From Deltaproteobacteria bacterium (lineage in GTDB: Bacteria; Desulfobacterota; Syntrophia; Syntrophales; UBA5619), in contig JAPLJW010000233.1 of NCBI GenBank assembly GCA_026388365.1, positions 1 to 15,972 on the forward strand: a stretch of 15,972 nt of DNA, written 5' to 3'. This document shows, piece by piece, positions 2,098 through 9,190 of this stretch. The position numbers were made by a program, and so were the translations under genes. Every line of letters starts with the position of its first letter. Within the stretch, counting starts at the first letter, position 1. The notes under the pieces are model-generated. The model had not been told where the DNA came from and did not search any database. It saw only the letters and a list, made by a program, of their open reading frames with translations.

Positions 2098-3597
2098 TTA
2101 CGGCTCTCGCTTCCAGATTCCCTTGATTGGGAAATCATTCTGATGCCACTTACCCGCTGTGGTAATCGTGTCATCAGACCATGTGCCCGTCATCGAGCCG
2201 CTTGTCGGTTTGCCCTCCCGGGTGGTAGACTCAAGTGCAAGTTTCACCGCACCCTCCGACGTGATTGTTCCCTTCAAATAGGTGCGCGTGTCGGTAATCG
2301 CGGAGAGCCAGGAAGCAGAAACCGTACCTTGCTTTACGGTCACCGTCACCGGCCGGCATGAATACATGCAGAATTGACCTCGGTAGGTTCCGTCGTAGCG
2401 GTCCGGACCAGCACCGGTAGATGATACGGTTTTTTGCGGAACCGCCACAGTCACGGCGGCCTGCTGCGCGGCCTGTTTCTTCGCCGCCTCCGCCTGCTGA
2501 AGCTCGACCTGCGCGGCCTTGAGTTCGGCCTGCAGTTTGGCTTCACGCTGGGTGGCCTCTCTGGCGATGCGCTCCTGCTCGGCCTGCAGTTTGGCTTCGC
2601 GCTGGGCGGCTTCCCTGGTGATGCGCTCCTGCTCCGCCTGCTGTTTGGCTTCGCGTTGGGCGGCTTCCCTGGCGATGCGCTCCTGCTCGACCTGCAGTTT
2701 GGCTTCACGCTGGGCGGCTTCCCTGGCGATGCGCTCCTGTTCAGATTTTCCTTGCGCAGTCAACAGTTCGGCCCGCAATTTCGCTTCACGCTCGACCGCT
2801 TCTCTGGCCGTTCGCTCCAACTCGGCCTTGCGCTGTTCCTCCACCGTCAGGCGTGCCTGGTCAGCGGCGGTGCGTTTGGACTCTGCTTCCGTTGCGCTGC
2901 GCGCCTCCTCGATCCGTTGCATGTCATGGGCGCGGTACGCCCAATAGCCGACGGCGGCAATCAGAACCAGGGCGGATATCCCTGCGGCGATCAGCCGCTG
3001 TTTAGCGTATCTGCGCCATATCGGGATCGACGGCAGCGTGCCGGCCGCCGTCCCGGTGATGGAGAAGGTGCGAATCGGCTCCGCGATGTTCTTGAAGCTT
3101 CGCTCGCCCAGTTGCTTGAACTGCAGCGACAGCTTGTTGCGGATCTGATCGTAGACGCTGCCCGACAGACAGATACCTCCGGGCTCCGCAATCGCCTGGA
3201 TGCGTGACGCAACGTTGACGCCGTCGCCCAGCAGATCGTCGCCCTGAATGATGACGTCTCCCAGATTGATGCCGATGCGAAAAAGCATCCGCTGTTCCGG
3301 CGGCAGGTGCTCGTTCCGCGTCCGCAACGCGGTCTGGATTTCGGTCGCGCACCGCACCGCTTCAACCGCGCTCGGAAACTCGACAAGGACCGCGTCTCCC
3401 GCGGTATTGAAGATCCGTCCGTGGTGCTGCCTGAGCAGCCCGTCGAAAACCTCGCGATGGCCCCGGAAGATCTCGACGGTGCGCTCCTCGTTCTCCTGCA
3501 TCATCCGGCTGTAACCGAAGACGTCGGCCACCAGGATCGTCGAAAGCCTGCGCTCGAGTGGCGGCGGGCTGTCCGTGGAGGGTTTGTCGTCCTGCAT
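2098..3597 (-). CDS. Class III adenylate/guanylate cyclase, membrane-bound, copy A
   Basis: This 499-residue protein probably makes cAMP from ATP at the inner membrane. Residues 15-180 form a class III cyclase domain: metal-binding Asp25 (LVADVFGYS) and Asp68 (NTAGDAV), and Asn128/Arg132 of GVNVASR at the transition-state positions. Of the usual substrate pair, Asp121 is present but the Lys is replaced by Asn64. One membrane helix follows at about 201-221. Next is a long E/R/K/A-rich helix (225-380) with four 18-residue repeats (286-357). The last domain (400-499) is beta-rich, starting DGTYRG and containing a CX3C pair (Cys410/Cys414). Topology would be cytoplasmic catalytic domain and periplasmic C-terminus, so the C-terminus may sense or anchor. 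The ATG at 3597 follows GGAGCGAGAC. It lies 148 bp downstream of its paralogue. Guanylate cyclase activity cannot be excluded. Confidence 0.9.
   Translation of the reverse strand: MQDDKPSTDSPPPLERRLSTILVADVFGYSRMMQENEERTVEIFRGHREVFDGLLRQHHGRIFNTAGDAVLVEFPSAVEAVRCATEIQTALRTRNEHLPPEQRMLFRIGINLGDVIIQGDDLLGDGVNVASRIQAIAEPGGICLSGSVYDQIRNKLSLQFKQLGERSFKNIAEPIRTFSITGTAAGTLPSIPIWRRYAKQRLIAAGISALVLIAAVGYWAYRAHDMQRIEEARSATEAESKRTAADQARLTVEEQRKAELERTAREAVEREAKLRAELLTAQGKSEQERIAREAAQREAKLQVEQERIAREAAQREAKQQAEQERITREAAQREAKLQAEQERIAREATQREAKLQAELKAAQVELQQAEAAKKQAAQQAAVTVAVPQKTVSSTGAGPDRYDGTYRGQFCMYSCRPVTVTVKQGTVSASWLSAITDTRTYLKGTITSEGAVKLALESTTREGKPTSGSMTGTWSDDTITTAGKWHQNDFPIKGIWKREP
2527..2742 (-). repeat. 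Four 54-bp coding repeats in cyclase copy A
   Basis: Four consecutive 54-bp units encode EQERIAREAAQREAKLQV and close variants (residues 286-303, 304-321, 322-339, 340-357). Eighteen residues equal five alpha-helical turns, so charges and small residues recur on the same face of the helix. Confidence 0.9.
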
Positions 3598-3745: not shown

Positions 3746-5296
3746 TCACGGTTCACGTACCAAGATCACCTTGAGTGGAATGCTATTATGATTCCACGTA
3801 CCCGCTGCTGTAATCGTGTCATCGGACCACTTTCCCGTCATCGTGCCGGTTATCGGTCTGCCTTTCTGGTCGAAAGCCTCAACTGCAAGTTTCACCGCAC
3901 CCGTGGGCGAGATCGTTCCCTTCAAGGCGCGCCTGCCGGTGCCGGAGAGCCAGGAGCCAGAAACCGTGCCTTGTTTTACGGTCACCGTCACCGGCAAGCA
4001 TGCCTGCCCGCACCATTGACCTCGGTAGGTTCCGTCGAAGCGGTCCGTGGCGGCGCCGGCGGGCGATGCGACCCGTTTCTTCGCCTCCTCCGCCTGCTGC
4101 AGCGCGGCCTGCGCGGCCTGTTTCTTCGCCGCCTCCGCCTGCTGAAGCTCGACCTGCGCGGCCTTGAGTTCGGCCTGCAGTTTGGCTTCGCGCTCGGCGG
4201 CCTCTCTGGCGAGGCGCTCCTGCTCGGCCTGCAGTTTGGCTTCGCGCAGGGCGGCTTCTCTGGCAATGCGCTCCTGCTCGCCCTGCTGTTTGGCTTCGCG
4301 CTCGGCGGCTTCCCTGGCAATGCGCTCCTGCTCGCCCTGCTGTTTGGCTTCGCGTTGGGCGGCTTCCCTGGCGATGCGCTCCTTCTCGACCTGCAGTTTG
4401 GCTTCACGCTGGGCGGCTTCCCTGGCGATGCGCTCCTGTTCAGATTTTCCTTGCACAGTCAACAGTTCGGCCCGCAATTTGGCTTCACGCTCGACCGCTT
4501 CTCTGGCCGTTCGCTCCAACTCGGCCTTGCGCTGTTCCTCCACCGTCAGGCGTGCCTGGTCAGCGGCGGCGCGGTCGGCCTCTTTTTCCGCCGCCATGCG
4601 CGTCTCTTCGATCCGTTGTGTGTCATGGGTGCGGTACGCCCAATAGCCGACGGCGGCCATAAGAACCATGGCGGACAACCCTGCGGCGATCATCCGCTGT
4701 TTAGCGCTTCTACGCCATGTTGGGATCGACGGCAGCGCGTCGCCCCCCACATCGGTGATGGAGAAGGTGCGAATCGGCTCCGCGATGTTCTTGAAGCTTC
4801 GCTCACCCAGTTGCTTAAACTGCAGCGACAGTTTGTTGCGGATCTGATCGTAAACGCTGCCCGAGAGGCAGATGCCGCCGGGCTCGGCAATCGTCTGGAT
4901 GCGCGCCGCGACGTTGACGCCGTCACCCAGCAGATCATTGCCCTGAACGATGACGTCGCCCAGATTGACGCCGATGCGAAAAAGCATGCGTTGTTCCGGC
5001 GGCAGGTGCTCGTTCCGCGTGCGCAACGCGGTCTGGATTTCCGTTGCACAACGCACCGCCTCCACCGCGCTCGGAAACTCGGCGAGGACCGCGTCCCCTG
5101 CGGTATTGAAAATTCGTCCATGGTGCTGCCTGAGCAGCCCGTCGAAAATCTCGCGATGGCCCCGAAAGATTTCAACGGTCCGCTCTTCGTTCTCCTGCAT
5201 CATCCGGCTGTACCCGAAGACGTCGGCCACCAGGATCGTTGACAGCCTGCGCTCGAGTGATGGTGGACTGCCCGCCGGGAGTTTGTCGTCTTGCAT
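3746..5296 (-). CDS. Class III adenylate/guanylate cyclase, membrane-bound, copy B
   Basis: This is the paralogue of the neighbouring cyclase, 516 residues from the ATG at 5296. That start matches the start of copy A and sits 7 nt after GGAG. A TTG four codons earlier (5308) is open but lies within the ribosome-site region. The cyclase domain is nearly identical, with metal Asp25 and Asp68, Asn64 in place of the usual Lys, Asp121, and Asn128/Arg132 (GVNVAAR). The membrane helix is at about 201-221. The charged helix holds five 18-residue repeats (residues 286-375) and an extra AALQQAEEAKK stretch. The C-terminal domain again starts DGTYRGQ, keeps a CX3C pair (Cys429/Cys433) and the KQGTVSGSW and GTMTGKWSDDTIT blocks, but differs more from copy A than the catalytic domain does. 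Class III cyclases work as dimers, so homo- or heterodimers with copy A are possible. Confidence 0.9.
   Translation of the reverse strand: MQDDKLPAGSPPSLERRLSTILVADVFGYSRMMQENEERTVEIFRGHREIFDGLLRQHHGRIFNTAGDAVLAEFPSAVEAVRCATEIQTALRTRNEHLPPEQRMLFRIGVNLGDVIVQGNDLLGDGVNVAARIQTIAEPGGICLSGSVYDQIRNKLSLQFKQLGERSFKNIAEPIRTFSITDVGGDALPSIPTWRRSAKQRMIAAGLSAMVLMAAVGYWAYRTHDTQRIEETRMAAEKEADRAAADQARLTVEEQRKAELERTAREAVEREAKLRAELLTVQGKSEQERIAREAAQREAKLQVEKERIAREAAQREAKQQGEQERIAREAAEREAKQQGEQERIAREAALREAKLQAEQERLAREAAEREAKLQAELKAAQVELQQAEAAKKQAAQAALQQAEEAKKRVASPAGAATDRFDGTYRGQWCGQACLPVTVTVKQGTVSGSWLSGTGRRALKGTISPTGAVKLAVEAFDQKGRPITGTMTGKWSDDTITAAGTWNHNSIPLKVILVREP
4172..4441 (-). repeat. Five 54-bp coding repeats in cyclase copy B
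   Basis: Five consecutive 54-bp units encode variants of EQERIAREAAEREAKQQG, one more than in copy A. The flanking helix sequence is the same in both proteins, so the array itself gained or lost a unit after or during the gene duplication. Confidence 0.9.
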
Positions 5297-5835
5297 ATCT
5301 TGCTCCAAAACACTGCCGATTGGAATTGTGCCGATAATCTTAACCCATCGTGCGCCGGCTGTCGGGGTTCCGATTCGCCCTGCGCCGCCCCGGCAGAATG
5401 AAGTGAATCAACGCGCACCGCAGTCGCACGTGATTGGTGGATAAGGCATTGTTTTTGACGGGGGTAGTGTAAGCAGAGCGAATTTGCATGTCAAGAAAAT
5501 AATGGCCACAAAAATGTGGGGTGCGACGCCGATGATCATGGCACGGATGTATCCGGGAACCCGTCCTATCATGAGAGCGATTCGCTTTTCGCCATTTCAT
5601 TCGTCACGAAGGCCTTTTCGCGTATAATCCGGATAGGCCTGTCATGTGCGGTCATTATTCGAGAACTTTGAATCGCTTCGGGTTTTATTCCCCGCCGCTT
5701 GCTGCGAAATACGGCTGGCCATCAGGACTGATGAAACAAGGGCCTGTGTCGGGAAGAGATGCGGCGGCCCATCGAACGTTCCGCTTCAGAATATATAAGG
5801 AGATCCTCCCCGCGTGAGCAATATCACACAGATAA

Positions 5836-5851
5836 TGTGAGGATGTTCACA
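5836..5851. promoter_or_regulatory. CRP-type operator (TGTGA-N6-TCACA)
   Basis: TGTGAGGATGTTCACA is a perfect match to the two pentameric half-sites and 6-bp spacing recognised by CRP/Vfr/Clp-type cAMP receptor proteins. A further half-site (TCACA, 5824-5828) lies just to the left. The centre (5843.5) is about 61-62 bp before the start expected from the -35 element at 5871, which is the classic class I activator position. No receptor gene is in the window, so the identity of the binding protein is inferred. Confidence 0.65.
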
Positions 5852-5870
5852 TAGTTTACCTTATGATGGC

Positions 5871-5899
5871 TTGACAATACCCCAAAAGTGTCGTTACCC
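5871..5899 (+). promoter_or_regulatory. Putative activator-dependent promoter of the riboswitch operon
   Basis: A consensus TTGACA (5871-5876) is followed after 17 bp by TTACCC (5894-5899), a poor -10 element. A good -35 with a weak -10 and a CRP-type site upstream fits a promoter that needs an activator. Transcription would start near 5905 and give a leader of about 208 nt containing the c-di-GMP aptamer. Confidence 0.45.
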
Positions 5900-5913
5900 T
5901 GCAATCAAGAGAA

Positions 5914-5950
5914 ATGATCAGGGAGTTTGATCTTTTTATTTTTTGATCAT
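5914..5950 (+). other. Leader hairpin with T-run, upstream of the aptamer
   Basis: GATCA (5916-5920) and TGATC (5928-5932) can form a 5-bp hairpin followed by TTTTTATTTTTT (5933-5944). Alternatively ATGATCA (5914-5920) can pair with TGATCAT (5944-5950), mutually exclusive with the first. It could be a weak terminator or attenuator between the promoter and the aptamer. The short stem makes this uncertain. Confidence 0.3.
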
Positions 5951-5962
5951 ATTGGCACATAG

Positions 5963-6053
5963 GACCTGAAAAGGGCAAACCATTACGAAAGTATGGGACG
6001 CAAAACCACTGACCTAAGTCCTCACGGGGATAGGGTGGCAGGGTTGCCAGGCG
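5963..6053 (+). ncRNA. Cyclic di-GMP-I (GEMM) riboswitch aptamer
   Basis: The sequence has the family's conserved blocks in order: AAAGGGCAAACC, a hairpin closed by a GAAA tetraloop (CCATTAC-GAAA-GTATGG), GGGACGCAAAACCAC, CCTAAG and GATAGGGTGG forming the tetraloop-receptor hairpin, and finally GGGTTGCC. CCTG (5965-5968) and CAGG (6048-6051) can close the P1 helix. The layout matches the Vibrio cholerae Vc2 class. It lies in the leader of a four-gene operon and should bind the bacterial second messenger c-di-GMP. An open frame that starts inside it at 5993 is a by-product of the RNA. Confidence 0.93.
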
Positions 6054-6059
6054 ATAGCA

Positions 6060-6109
6060 GCATCTCCAGAGTGTCTGTTTCGCAGGGCAGCAAAGAGAAA
6101 TGGAGGTGC
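6060..6109 (+). promoter_or_regulatory. Riboswitch expression platform: SD-sequestering hairpin
   Basis: GCATCTCCA (6060-6068), starting 9 nt after the P1 helix, can pair with TGGAGGTGC (6101-6109) over 9 bp with one G-U pair. This buries the Shine-Dalgarno sequence of the small ORF at 6113. GGGGAT (6026-6031), inside the aptamer's second hairpin, can instead pair with ATCTCC (6062-6067). Aptamer folding and SD masking are therefore linked, and ligand binding may favour the masked form. No T-run terminator is present, so control is probably translational. Confidence 0.6.
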
Positions 6110-6112
6110 GCC

Positions 6113-6316
6113 ATGAAAGTCATTAAGAACCCTTCCAGCATACCGCAATTCATATTTCCTCCAAATCTGTTTTATCTCCTCTTGTTGATCCTTCCATGCC
6201 GAAGGTGTTTTAGCCGGGTCGTACATTTTATGGGCGGGGATGTCGCGTGGTCCGAACAGGAAAAACAGAAAATGAGAGGGGGGAAGCATGGAGAAGATTT
6301 GCATTGTGAAGCTTAG
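6113..6316 (+). CDS. Small membrane peptide, first ORF under the riboswitch
   Basis: This 67-residue ORF starts at ATG 6113, five nt after a strong GGAGGT. One hydrophobic segment (about residues 12-28, around FYLLLLIL) is followed by basic residues and Cys29/Cys32 (CRRC), then a hydrophilic tail. It overlaps the next gene's start (6288) by 29 bp in a different frame, so translation of the two may be coupled. I recognise no family. Support for real coding is the ribosome site, its masking by the riboswitch platform and the overlap. The alternative is a leader peptide whose translation opens the next start. Confidence 0.5.
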   Translation: MKVIKNPSSIPQFIFPPNLFYLLLLILPCRRCFSRVVHFMGGDVAWSEQEKQKMRGGKHGEDLHCEA

Positions 6317-6869
6317 AAAAAGAATGACAAATCCCGTCGATGTTCAGAAAGCGTGGGGGGAGCGAGACGTCGCAAACGAAGACAGAAGGTTAAAAGGCCT
6401 ATCTTTAGCCGGTGCCGACAACCGCTGCATCAGAGAAATAGATGACGGAAGTTTTCGTCCCGATGATAAAAAAGACGCGGCAGACAGGACCGTTTTATTG
6501 ATGCTGACGCAGGATCAAACGAGAGCGCTGCGAACCAATCCCCACATCGTATCCTTCTTAAGCACAAAGTCCGCCGAAGGATCGGAAGCCCTGAGAGATC
6601 GGGACGGGACGATTGTGGTCAAATTTGAATTCGGGTCGATACCCCCTATGCGATTATTGAAAGTGGAAGAAGTGATTCAGATGCTCAGAATCAGCAGGAG
6701 TTATCTCAACAAGCTTGTCAGGCAAGGGAAGTTGAAGAGCTACAAGCTCGGGCGGCTCCGGCGCCTTATACTCGATGATATTCTTTCCTATCTTGAAGGC
6801 AGCCGGGAGTTGACCAGCATGCGGCAACAGGATTCGGAATCGAAAATAATCCAAAAAGGGACTGCGTAA
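6288..6869 (+). CDS. Excisionase/MerR-like helix-turn-helix protein
   Basis: The 193-residue protein starts at ATG 6288 after a purine-rich GAGAGGGGGGAAGC ribosome site. The C-terminal part (about 122-172) is an excisionase-type winged helix: LLKVEEVIQMLRISRSYLNKLVRQGKLKSYKLGRLRR, here split as LLKVEEVIQMLRISR and SYLNKLVRQGKLKSYKLGRL, then a domain closing with ILDDILSYLEGS. This fold binds DNA in excisionases, transposon regulators and MerR-type regulators. The N-terminal 120 residues are hydrophilic and not recognised. It lies 27 bp before the ATPase gene and in the same transcript as the riboswitch, so it is more likely an operon-specific regulator or assembly accessory than a phage excisionase. 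No integrase is nearby. Confidence 0.7.
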   Translation: MEKICIVKLRKRMTNPVDVQKAWGERDVANEDRRLKGLSLAGADNRCIREIDDGSFRPDDKKDAADRTVLLMLTQDQTRALRTNPHIVSFLSTKSAEGSEALRDRDGTIVVKFEFGSIPPMRLLKVEEVIQMLRISRSYLNKLVRQGKLKSYKLGRLRRLILDDILSYLEGSRELTSMRQQDSESKIIQKGTA

Positions 6870-6896
6870 CGTTATATCAGACAGGAGGTATGAATC

Positions 6897-8243
6897 ATGT
6901 ATTATGAATATTGGGGTCTGAAAAAACCAGCCTTTGACAATGTTCCCGACCCGTCCATGTACGTGGAATGCCACGCTTCCATGGAAAATGCCATCGCGGA
7001 AACGCTCTTTGCTATTGAGGAAGGCGATGAGTGCATCGCGGTGATCGTTGGCGACGTCGGTCTGGGAAAAACAATGTCCATACGAATGATGATTGACGCT
7101 CTGGATCAGGACAAATATAAAATCGCCCTCATCACAAATCCGGGCATCAGCTTTGTGCAGATCCTTCAGGAGATTATCGGTCAACTCACGGGGAAGCAGT
7201 GCGAGGAAAAGAGGAAGGTGGATCTGTTGGAAATCTTCAATCGCCTCCTCTTTTCGACCCTGGAGGAGGGCAGGAAAATACTTATTTTCATTGATGAGGC
7301 CAATGCCATTACCCCCATGAATCTGGAAAATCTCCGTTTGCTGACGAACATGCAGGGCGATAAAAGAAATCTCTTTACGATGGTGCTTGCCGGGCAGATT
7401 GAGTTTGCCCGGAGGCTTGAACACCCGAAGCGGGCCAACCTTTTTCAACGGGTTGGAACCTACAGCAGAATCGACAAACTCGAATCGGTCGACAAGGTCA
7501 GAAAGTATGTTGAAACCAGAGTGGCGCTGGCAGGGGCGACGAAAAGGATTTTTGCAGACGATGCCTTTGATATCCTTTGGGAACAGTCTGATCATGGCGT
7601 CCCGCGCTTGGTCAACAAGTTGTCCAAACTCTGCCTGAAGGCCGGCGAGACGAACCATTTTGAATGGATCACCGGTGAAATTGTGGGGCAAATCAGTTCT
7701 CGTTTTCATAAATTGACGGGACCCGCCATCCAGAAAAGAAAATCGCGCAGATGCATTCCAACGGAAGTTCAGTCAGGTGGGAACCCAAAAGCGGAGGGGA
7801 ACGAGGCTGCAGACGTTACCCATCCGGAAGAAGAATGGTCAGGCCGGATTGAAAATGAACAAACGGCGTTTATCACGCAGCAGACCTTGCCGCAGGAAGA
7901 GCGAAATGCGGAGGGGGAAGCGTCGGACCCGGCAGCAAAAGACGCCATGTCATTCACACCACCACAACAGTCTCATGAGGAACCGGAACACGCAAAGAGG
8001 GATTCCGAAGCGGAGATGTGCATCGGCCATGTCAGAATAAAAATAAATTTCCCCGAACACTTGATGAAACAATCCTTGTCATCCAGTCAGGAATACCGTT
8101 TTAAATTGGCCGGCGGGATCGCTGCCGAAACGCTGAGAAAATATCCTCACCTGGTAACGTCTCATTCCACAGATCCTGTTCCGATTTGGCTGGAGATCCG
8201 GGATTTTGTACTGAACCGGATTACGCATACAAGCCGTATGTAA
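6897..8243 (+). CDS. ExeA/GspA/MshM-family AAA ATPase
   Basis: The 448-residue protein opens with the family signature MYYEYWGLKKPAFDNVPDPS. It has Walker A GDVGLGKT (52-59), Walker B ILIFIDEA (128-135) and a sensor-2-type GVPRLVNKL (234-242). The ATPase domain ends near residue 275. Relatives include ExeA/GspA of type II secretion, MshM of MSHA pilus biogenesis and the ATPase of PEP-CTERM loci. Unlike ExeA, no membrane helix or peptidoglycan-binding domain follows. Instead there is an acidic, probably disordered linker (about 285-375) and a small C-terminal block of about 70 residues that I do not recognise. The ATG at 6897 lies 7 nt after AGGAGGT, an excellent ribosome site. It would act at the cytoplasmic face of an envelope assembly machine. 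The closest role is inferred from the following TPR gene, as in mshM-mshN. Confidence 0.88.
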   Translation: MYYEYWGLKKPAFDNVPDPSMYVECHASMENAIAETLFAIEEGDECIAVIVGDVGLGKTMSIRMMIDALDQDKYKIALITNPGISFVQILQEIIGQLTGKQCEEKRKVDLLEIFNRLLFSTLEEGRKILIFIDEANAITPMNLENLRLLTNMQGDKRNLFTMVLAGQIEFARRLEHPKRANLFQRVGTYSRIDKLESVDKVRKYVETRVALAGATKRIFADDAFDILWEQSDHGVPRLVNKLSKLCLKAGETNHFEWITGEIVGQISSRFHKLTGPAIQKRKSRRCIPTEVQSGGNPKAEGNEAADVTHPEEEWSGRIENEQTAFITQQTLPQEERNAEGEASDPAAKDAMSFTPPQQSHEEPEHAKRDSEAEMCIGHVRIKINFPEHLMKQSLSSSQEYRFKLAGGIAAETLRKYPHLVTSHSTDPVPIWLEIRDFVLNRITHTSRM

Positions 8244-8269
8244 ATGCTTCCGAGAGGGGAGATAGATTT

Positions 8270-9190
8270 ATGAACCATCGGGATCGGGTCTCTGCCCGCC
8301 GGTCGTTTCATAAGGAAGGCACGCAGGATAAGGCAGAAGACGGCCGTTATGAGGACATGCAATCTTATCCTGCGGGCACCGGCTGTGAGGATTCCCATGC
8401 CGACACCCATGCGAATCTGGGATTCTTTTATCTGGAACAGGGGAAACCCGAAGAGGCTTTAGTCTGTTTCAGCAAGGTCATTGAGTTGGAGCCCAATAAT
8501 CCGGAAGCTTACAATAACATGGGATATGTCCATGAAACGATGGATCGCCTGTCCGGTGCGCTGCACCTGTATCAAAAGGCCCTGGCGCTGGACAAAAATA
8601 ATGTGGAAGCATTCATCAACATTGCGCATATCCGCGATATGGAGGGCAACTACCCTGGAGCCCTTCAGAACTATAAAGCGGCGCTGGCCATCGAACCGGA
8701 TCATGTCAATGCGCACTTTTGTCTCGGCGTCCTTTACGACCGGTATGATATGTTCGATGAGGCCATTGATCAGTATCAACAGGTTCTGGATCTCGATCCC
8801 CTGCACCGAAAGGCCATCTTCAATCTGAGCAATCTCTATATTCAAACGGGAAATGACCCTGCGGCTATTGAACTTTTGAAACTTCTACTCGAACAGGATC
8901 CGGATTATGCGGAGGCCTGGAACAATATGGGCTCTCTCTACGAAGAACTCGGTCAAATCGACATGGCCTTGAGTGCTTGGCAGCAGTGCCTGACATTGCA
9001 GCCCACGCAGGTCAAGGCGAACATTAATCTGGCGCGCATCCAGTATCGTTTATGGAAATCGGGTGGCAGCGGCTACCGCAAAGAAGAAATCATCAACAGA
9101 CTTAAATTTGTCCTTTCTCTTGATCCGCTCAGTGATCAAGCAAAAAACCTTTTAGAACGGGTTGAGGCAAGCGAGGAGGAGATTACTTAA
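8270..9190 (+). CDS. TPR-repeat protein, partner of the ExeA-type ATPase
   Basis: The 306-residue protein has a hydrophilic N-terminus (1-43) and six regularly spaced 34-residue tetratricopeptide repeats (about 44-77, 78-111, 112-145, 146-179, 180-213 and 214-247), then a weaker helical tail. No signal peptide or membrane helix is visible from this start. The ATG at 8270 has GGGGAGA 7-8 nt upstream. The frame is open further back into the ATPase gene, but that has no better ribosome site. It is separated from the ATPase gene by 26 bp. TPR proteins scaffold complexes, and in MSHA and PEP-CTERM loci one sits beside the same ATPase family. It is the last gene of the riboswitch operon; the next gene is on the other strand. 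Confidence 0.85.
   Translation: MNHRDRVSARRSFHKEGTQDKAEDGRYEDMQSYPAGTGCEDSHADTHANLGFFYLEQGKPEEALVCFSKVIELEPNNPEAYNNMGYVHETMDRLSGALHLYQKALALDKNNVEAFINIAHIRDMEGNYPGALQNYKAALAIEPDHVNAHFCLGVLYDRYDMFDEAIDQYQQVLDLDPLHRKAIFNLSNLYIQTGNDPAAIELLKLLLEQDPDYAEAWNNMGSLYEELGQIDMALSAWQQCLTLQPTQVKANINLARIQYRLWKSGGSGYRKEEIINRLKFVLSLDPLSDQAKNLLERVEASEEEIT

Follow-up and report, generated by a model that had tools for sequence, protein, structure and literature searches.

The closest described relative of the arrangement reported here is the leader of gbpA in Vibrio cholerae, in which a CRP site lies upstream of the Vc1 c-di-GMP-I riboswitch; in the available part of that report, binding of CRP is cAMP-dependent and the effect of c-di-GMP on transcription is independent of the Vc1 riboswitch (Kariisa et al. 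2015, PMC4545359). Because gbpA joins a CRP site to Vc1 in this way, the stacked kind of leader is already known, and the earlier note on the present DNA overstated matters in holding that few operons have both inputs so arranged. The Vc2 riboswitch, treated together with a pilM riboswitch, is a translational OFF switch according to the accessible portion of its source (PMC9262584). Among CRP relatives, Vfr of Pseudomonas is described, in the part of the source available, as a homologue of CRP that drives genes for type IV pili, and Clp of Lysobacter as a CRP-like effector of c-di-GMP (PMC11139211).

We analysed a 15,972-nt stretch of a Deltaproteobacteria bacterium of the Syntrophales (contig JAPLJW010000233.1), hereafter the window, where a CRP-type site precedes a c-di-GMP-I riboswitch in one leader, with the same order of elements as in gbpA. 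As far as the accessible text on gbpA goes (PMC4545359), the two differ in that one CRP site is listed there whereas the window has a pair spaced by 23 bp, in the downstream gene and lineage, and in a recurrence over multiple leaders that is seen in this order and not described for gbpA. The window shares with Vc2 and the pilM riboswitch the RNA class and, as we propose, the OFF direction, and one stacked leader of the order (L292) also precedes a pilM gene; in contrast, the available part of PMC9262584 makes no mention of a CRP operator. What is shared with Vfr is control of genes for type IV pili by a CRP-family protein, with pairs of the order adjoining pilin-like, PilX-like, prepilin peptidase and PilM genes, whereas a riboswitch link is not mentioned in the accessible part of PMC11139211. 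With Clp the Crp relatives of the order share the CRP-like fold, c-di-GMP sensing being only a possibility for them. A search of part of the open-access literature, by title and beginning of the abstract, returned no work on tandem CRP operators combined with c-di-GMP-I riboswitches in this group. The main new point is the recurrence of the stack across leaders.

We favor, with moderate confidence, a reading of the operon head as two-step control, in which activation by a Crp/Fnr-family protein is followed by a c-di-GMP-I riboswitch that adjusts the output. A Crp/Fnr-family protein would bind the tandem, 23-bp-spaced operator and activate the adjoining downstream promoter, with class I the likeliest position. 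From a start near 5906 the transcript would carry the riboswitch, which would in turn tune the HTH_17-AAA-TPR operon, the likeliest mechanism being that the ribosome site at 6102–6109 is freed or masked. Of the wiring proposed in the earlier note, a CRP-family operator ahead of a promoter and a predicted start just upstream of the aptamer are supported, while a link to the neighboring cyclases is not. Points that weigh against the two-step reading are the weak −10 and the negative generic promoter scan, the many operon rows and riboswitches that lack the pair, the absence of a crp homologue from the window, three regions around Crp homologues that have no pair, the RNAs ending at 6160 in which the aptamer hardly affects the ribosome site, and, at gbpA, an effect of c-di-GMP on transcription that does not require Vc1.

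The tandem operator and its predicted promoter

The perfect TGTGA-N6-TCACA palindrome from which the earlier reading took its operator is present at 5836–5851 (site 2, no strand assigned; letters rechecked). A single perfect match occurs in the window where 0.02 are expected, and 4 of 200 shuffles contain one. Site 1, CGTGAGCAATATCACA at 5813–5828 (no strand assigned), was overlooked in the earlier note; it lies 23 bp upstream of site 2, at a spacing that is conserved, and departs from the motif at one position. The resulting 39-bp pair, allowing up to 3 mismatches, is matched once in the window and in 0 of 200 shuffles. Palindrome and pair are both better than chance in these shuffle tests, and the case for an operator rests on them because the motif with up to 2 mismatches shows no enrichment in the window (4 vs. 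4.41 expected).

We compared 53 rows for the HTH_17 operon and found the pair (up to 5 mismatches, a level reached by at most 1 of 100 shuffles) in eight, namely the window, L001, L002, L003, L003b, L078, L080 and L087; it was missing from the other 45. With the limit set at 4 mismatches, the pair occurs at spacing 23 in six rows, and at any other spacing from 16 to 59 in two rows at most. Over 20 scored positions the pair has 1 mismatch each in the window and L001, 3 in L078, 4 in L003 and 5 in L087. The loci L001 and L002 keep the pair (site 2 included), the −35 box and the operon, and a Crp homologue is divergent from the operon in both (complete in L001, partial at a contig end in L002). 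L024 was not counted; it has only one site, with a Crp homologue (25%) ~1 kb upstream.

The position and promoter test yielded a −35 box at a fixed distance in relatives, a weak −10, and no promoter reported by a generic scan of 5780–6300. The box 19 nt past site 2 is TTGACA in the window (5871–5876, plus strand) and TTGACG in both L001 and L002, and it is followed after a spacer of 18 by TACCCT (5895–5900, plus strand; 3/6), which would place the start near 5906; the best −10 scores 4/6 with a spacer of 17 in each of the two relatives. For a start near 5905–5907, site 2 would be centered at about −61 to −64, which agrees with the −61.5 or so estimated earlier. This geometry points to activation, not repression, at the operator, and binding there by a Crp-family protein is strongly indicated.

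A class II arrangement, in which GACAAT at 5873–5878 would serve as the −10, site 2 would sit near −41.5 and transcription would begin near 5885, draws on the 11 other leaders of the order with a pair stacked on a riboswitch: there a TATAAT-like hexamer scores best at the class II offset (mean 3.27/6, reached by 36 of 2000 permutations), and the window scores 4/6 at the same offset. However, the nearest operon relatives, L001 and L002, score 2/6 and 1/6 there, compared to 5/6 for the −35 and 4/6 for the −10 in the class I frame, and for the window we consider class II improbable and retain class I. With the class II offset in the 11 leaders and the class I frame in the window, L001 and L002, the geometry of the promoter seems to vary from lineage to lineage. 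The end of the operator and the aptamer are separated by 59 to 124 bp in stacked leaders, which therefore have space enough for a promoter.

The riboswitch and the operon behind it

The c-di-GMP-I aptamer that had been recognized in the leader from the letters alone was borne out by an Rfam match (RF01051) at 5964–6051 on the plus strand, with 75.4 bits against a cut-off of 35 (E 1.3e-13) and model positions 1–87 of 87 matched. In a hand reading of the model alignment, G at 5974 occupies the position equivalent to G20 of Vc2, which, according to the available part of the source, governs preference between c-di-GMP and cGAMP (PMC9262584); a cGAMP-specific aptamer was ruled out from the G at this selectivity position.

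A terminator-type expression platform was set aside and translational control preferred because the scan downstream of the aptamer gave a single plus-strand terminator-like site, a weak one at 6190–6205. Control at the level of translation is plausible from the folding predictions. The Shine-Dalgarno GGAGGUGC (6102–6109, plus strand), which precedes an ATG at 6113, pairs with a candidate anti-Shine-Dalgarno, GCAUCUCC (6060–6067, plus strand), in a run of nine consecutive pairs that 142 of 5000 shuffles reach. Enforcing the aptamer reduced the predicted exposure of the ribosome site from 0.15–0.39 to 0.01–0.11 in RNAs ending at 6113–6135 and barely shifted it, from 0.16–0.17 to 0.12–0.16, in RNAs ending at 6160. 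Tentatively, these models suggest that c-di-GMP switches off translation starting at 6113, the direction of the effect, a lowering of translation by c-di-GMP, being a guess.

The ATG at 6113 opens a putative 67-aa leader ORF (6113–6316, plus strand), the in-frame part of an ORF at 5993–6316, which overlaps the start of the HTH_17 gene, is hydrophobic, has a strong ribosome site and had no Pfam match. A longer membrane ORF occupies roughly the same place in L001 (127 aa) and L002 (129 aa). The first operon gene with homologues encodes an excisionase-like HTH_17 protein (6288–6869, plus strand; Pfam HTH_17, E 4.5e-11) and is followed by an AAA ATPase gene (6897–8243, plus strand; AAA_22), whose product resembles the XrtA-associated ATPase at a score under the cut-off of that model, and by a TPR-repeat gene (8186–9190, plus strand; Pfam). 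This HTH_17-AAA-TPR cassette (6288–9190) is widespread, occurring in Smithella, Syntrophorhabdus, Brocadiaceae and Scalindua MAGs, and no constant gene neighbors that would hint at the function of the operon were seen among five such loci compared.

Metagenomic relatives, P0002–P0009, reach 69–90% identity. For the HTH_17 protein, the best match among named homologues (62%) carries a Nitrospirota label, while the adjoining PpiD-like protein points to Deltaproteobacteria and Syntrophales, MAGs of which supply its named homologues at 78–80% identity; this mismatch possibly reflects transfer or a mislabeled bin. In the nearest genome searched (G144), which has the PpiD-like protein at 90% identity, the order mscL-ppiD-mreB is kept, yet the HTH_17 alignment matched over 55 residues only.

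Recurrence of the stack and spread of the operator

What is observed directly is the set of elements, how they are spaced, and that they recur in relatives. Of 155 genomes of the order, 79 have c-di-GMP-I riboswitches. For 140 of these riboswitches, taken from 74 genomes among the matches listed, and for the window, we assessed as much as 300 bp of upstream sequence (141 leaders, one of which had less than 100 bp); 12 riboswitches that were members of arrays or lay at contig ends were left out, as were genomes outside the order. The 23-bp pair (up to 5 mismatches) was stacked on the riboswitch in 12 of the 141 leaders, while shuffling the leaders base by base left an average of 0.11 and never more than 2. 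Each of the other spacings between 17 and 39 turned up in 0 to 4 leaders; three leaders with a spacing of 21 bp and no more than 4 mismatches were set aside. No leader had the pair at spacing 23 in the 300 bp downstream of the riboswitch. The remaining 129 of 141 riboswitches were not stacked on the pair. Apart from the window, stacked leaders came from five genomes, accounting for six of six leaders in G110, two of four in G003, one of one in both G112 and G127, and one of two in G123. In relatives that keep both riboswitch and operon, where the earlier note held that loss of the operator would count against it, the pair is present in three of three (L003, L078 and L087), with aptamers of the c-di-GMP-I-GGC subfamily.

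Genes following the stacked leaders include pilM (L292), a gene for a fibronectin/PKD-domain protein (L258) and HTH_17 (L003, L078, L087); the L232 leader runs into the start of an ORF resembling that of L258, and ORFs after L283, L202, L048, L245 and L267 had no Pfam match. All six c-di-GMP-I riboswitches found in G110 lie directly behind a tandem operator (L232, L267, L283, L292, L202 and L087). The L003 contig carries two copies of the HTH_17 operon (2637–3167 and 8001–8513), with a riboswitch before only one of them. The Scalindua entry L007/L039, in which a riboswitch lies near an HTH_17 gene on the opposite strand, was not counted as stacked.

Operator and riboswitch need not co-occur, because L001 and L002 have the operator and a crp gene and yielded no c-di-GMP-I riboswitch at the locus or elsewhere in the genome, in searches of which one had a built-in control that gave no match, although the same search matched 17 of 29 genomes. 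Across the 155 genomes of the order, a search for the pair that tolerated up to 3 mismatches gave 71 sites in 45 genomes, compared to four sites in three genomes for a reversed-pattern control; the 23-bp tandem pair is a real and widespread operator.

The Crp of L001 was searched in 19 near-kin genomes, six of which have a homologue at 60% identity or above (G001, G002, G134, G136, G137 and G142; the genes of G136 and G002 are partial), and in all six the pair lies within ~110 bp of this Crp/Fnr-family gene. The pair is situated between crp and divergent genes with a pilin N-methylation motif in G142 and G137 (of four ORFs, three score above the cut-off and one narrowly misses it), the genes divergent from crp include a PilX-type ORF in G136, and in G003 the pair separates a Crp gene from a prepilin peptidase gene, both on one strand. 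Because pairs adjoin crp and pilus genes, a Crp-family protein is the putative binder and a tie to type IV pili is suggested; a pilus regulon of this Crp lineage is likely. The 20 regions examined for pair context were partly picked for closeness to crp and are a biased sample. Loci L183–L187 and L196 have the 23-bp pair near crp, pilin-like, PilX-like, prepilin peptidase and PilM genes, and three regions around Crp homologues of 48–51% identity (L188, L194, L195) had none.

The signal sensed and the neighboring cyclases

In nine Crp relatives the GE...RS phosphate cassette is invariant, and the C-helix positions that we take to be the adenine contacts of CRP hold M, T or A and an invariant D, a divergence that sets the Crp relatives of this order apart from Vfr. 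Among solved structures, the CRP/FNR-family chains 3mzh, 3d0s, 3h3u and 3i54, presumably mycobacterial CRP, match best over the full length. We consider the case for cAMP as the ligand of the Crp-family protein to be evenly balanced.

If the Crp-like protein itself answered to c-di-GMP, a single messenger would be read twice in one leader. The M/T/A and invariant D at the adenine-contact positions would allow this, and the accessible part of the literature on Clp of Lysobacter describes a CRP-like protein that responds to c-di-GMP (PMC11139211). The invariant GE...RS cassette nevertheless fits a cyclic mononucleotide, and the operator and Crp gene of L001 and L002 come without a c-di-GMP-I riboswitch, so that we rate this reading as unlikely. 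We give a similarly low probability to a broader proposal, that in part of the order c-di-GMP-I riboswitches and a Crp-family regulator whose ligand pocket is unusual make up a hard-wired, genome-wide two-checkpoint module for surface and pilus genes, one that extends in a single genome to all the riboswitches found there and may read one messenger twice.

The two membrane cyclases next door that the earlier note described correspond to two cyclase-domain genes on the minus strand, the start of the nearer gene lying ~500 bp from the operator. The nearer, divergent gene (3746–5308) encodes a class III cyclase domain whose part in the control is doubtful, and the second (2098–3597) is 78% identical to it; the catalytic domains match Pfam Guanylate_cyc with 44.6 and 50.1 bits, the cut-off being 21.9. 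Both genes encode membrane-anchored proteins with long runs of a EQERIAREAAQREAKLQ-like repeat, and the tandem probably arose by local duplication. When the nearer cyclase was aligned with 3mr7, it had IFNTAGD in place of IVKTTGD, with N instead of the expected lysine that we assume to be the adenine-specifying residue. No cyclase match was found at the other HTH_17 operon loci compared, many of which have only ~1.5 kb of flanking sequence, and at E 1e-30 a cyclase homologue was present in one of 23 related genomes, on a contig different from that of the operon.

The exact wiring proposed in the earlier note, in which these two cyclases make the cAMP for a cAMP-CRP complex at the operator, has in its favor the proximity of two membrane-anchored cyclase-domain genes. 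Against it stand their absence from the other operon loci and near absence from related genomes, the missing lysine, a promoter-like site of the cyclase gene's own (5494–5466) and, in a scan of the window, no CRP-like site for the cyclase gene itself. A link between cyclases and operon was rejected on the ground that the adjacency is not conserved in relatives, and we regard the wiring as a whole as very unlikely. It is just as hard to credit that the operator is a leftover of a lost divergent crp from an ancestral L001-like layout, or serves repression only, since the divergent Crp gene of L001 and L002 does have no counterpart in the window, where no crp homologue was found, but the window and L001 sites are of equal quality (1 mismatch each) and comparable pairs lie far from crp in several genomes.

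The 39-bp tandem operator upstream of c-di-GMP-I riboswitches in several genomes turns what was a one-off guess about a single leader into a comparative pattern, in which combined transcriptional and RNA-level second-messenger logic becomes testable across several promoters. Its recurrence also raises the question of which signal is sensed by this pilus-tied Crp lineage.
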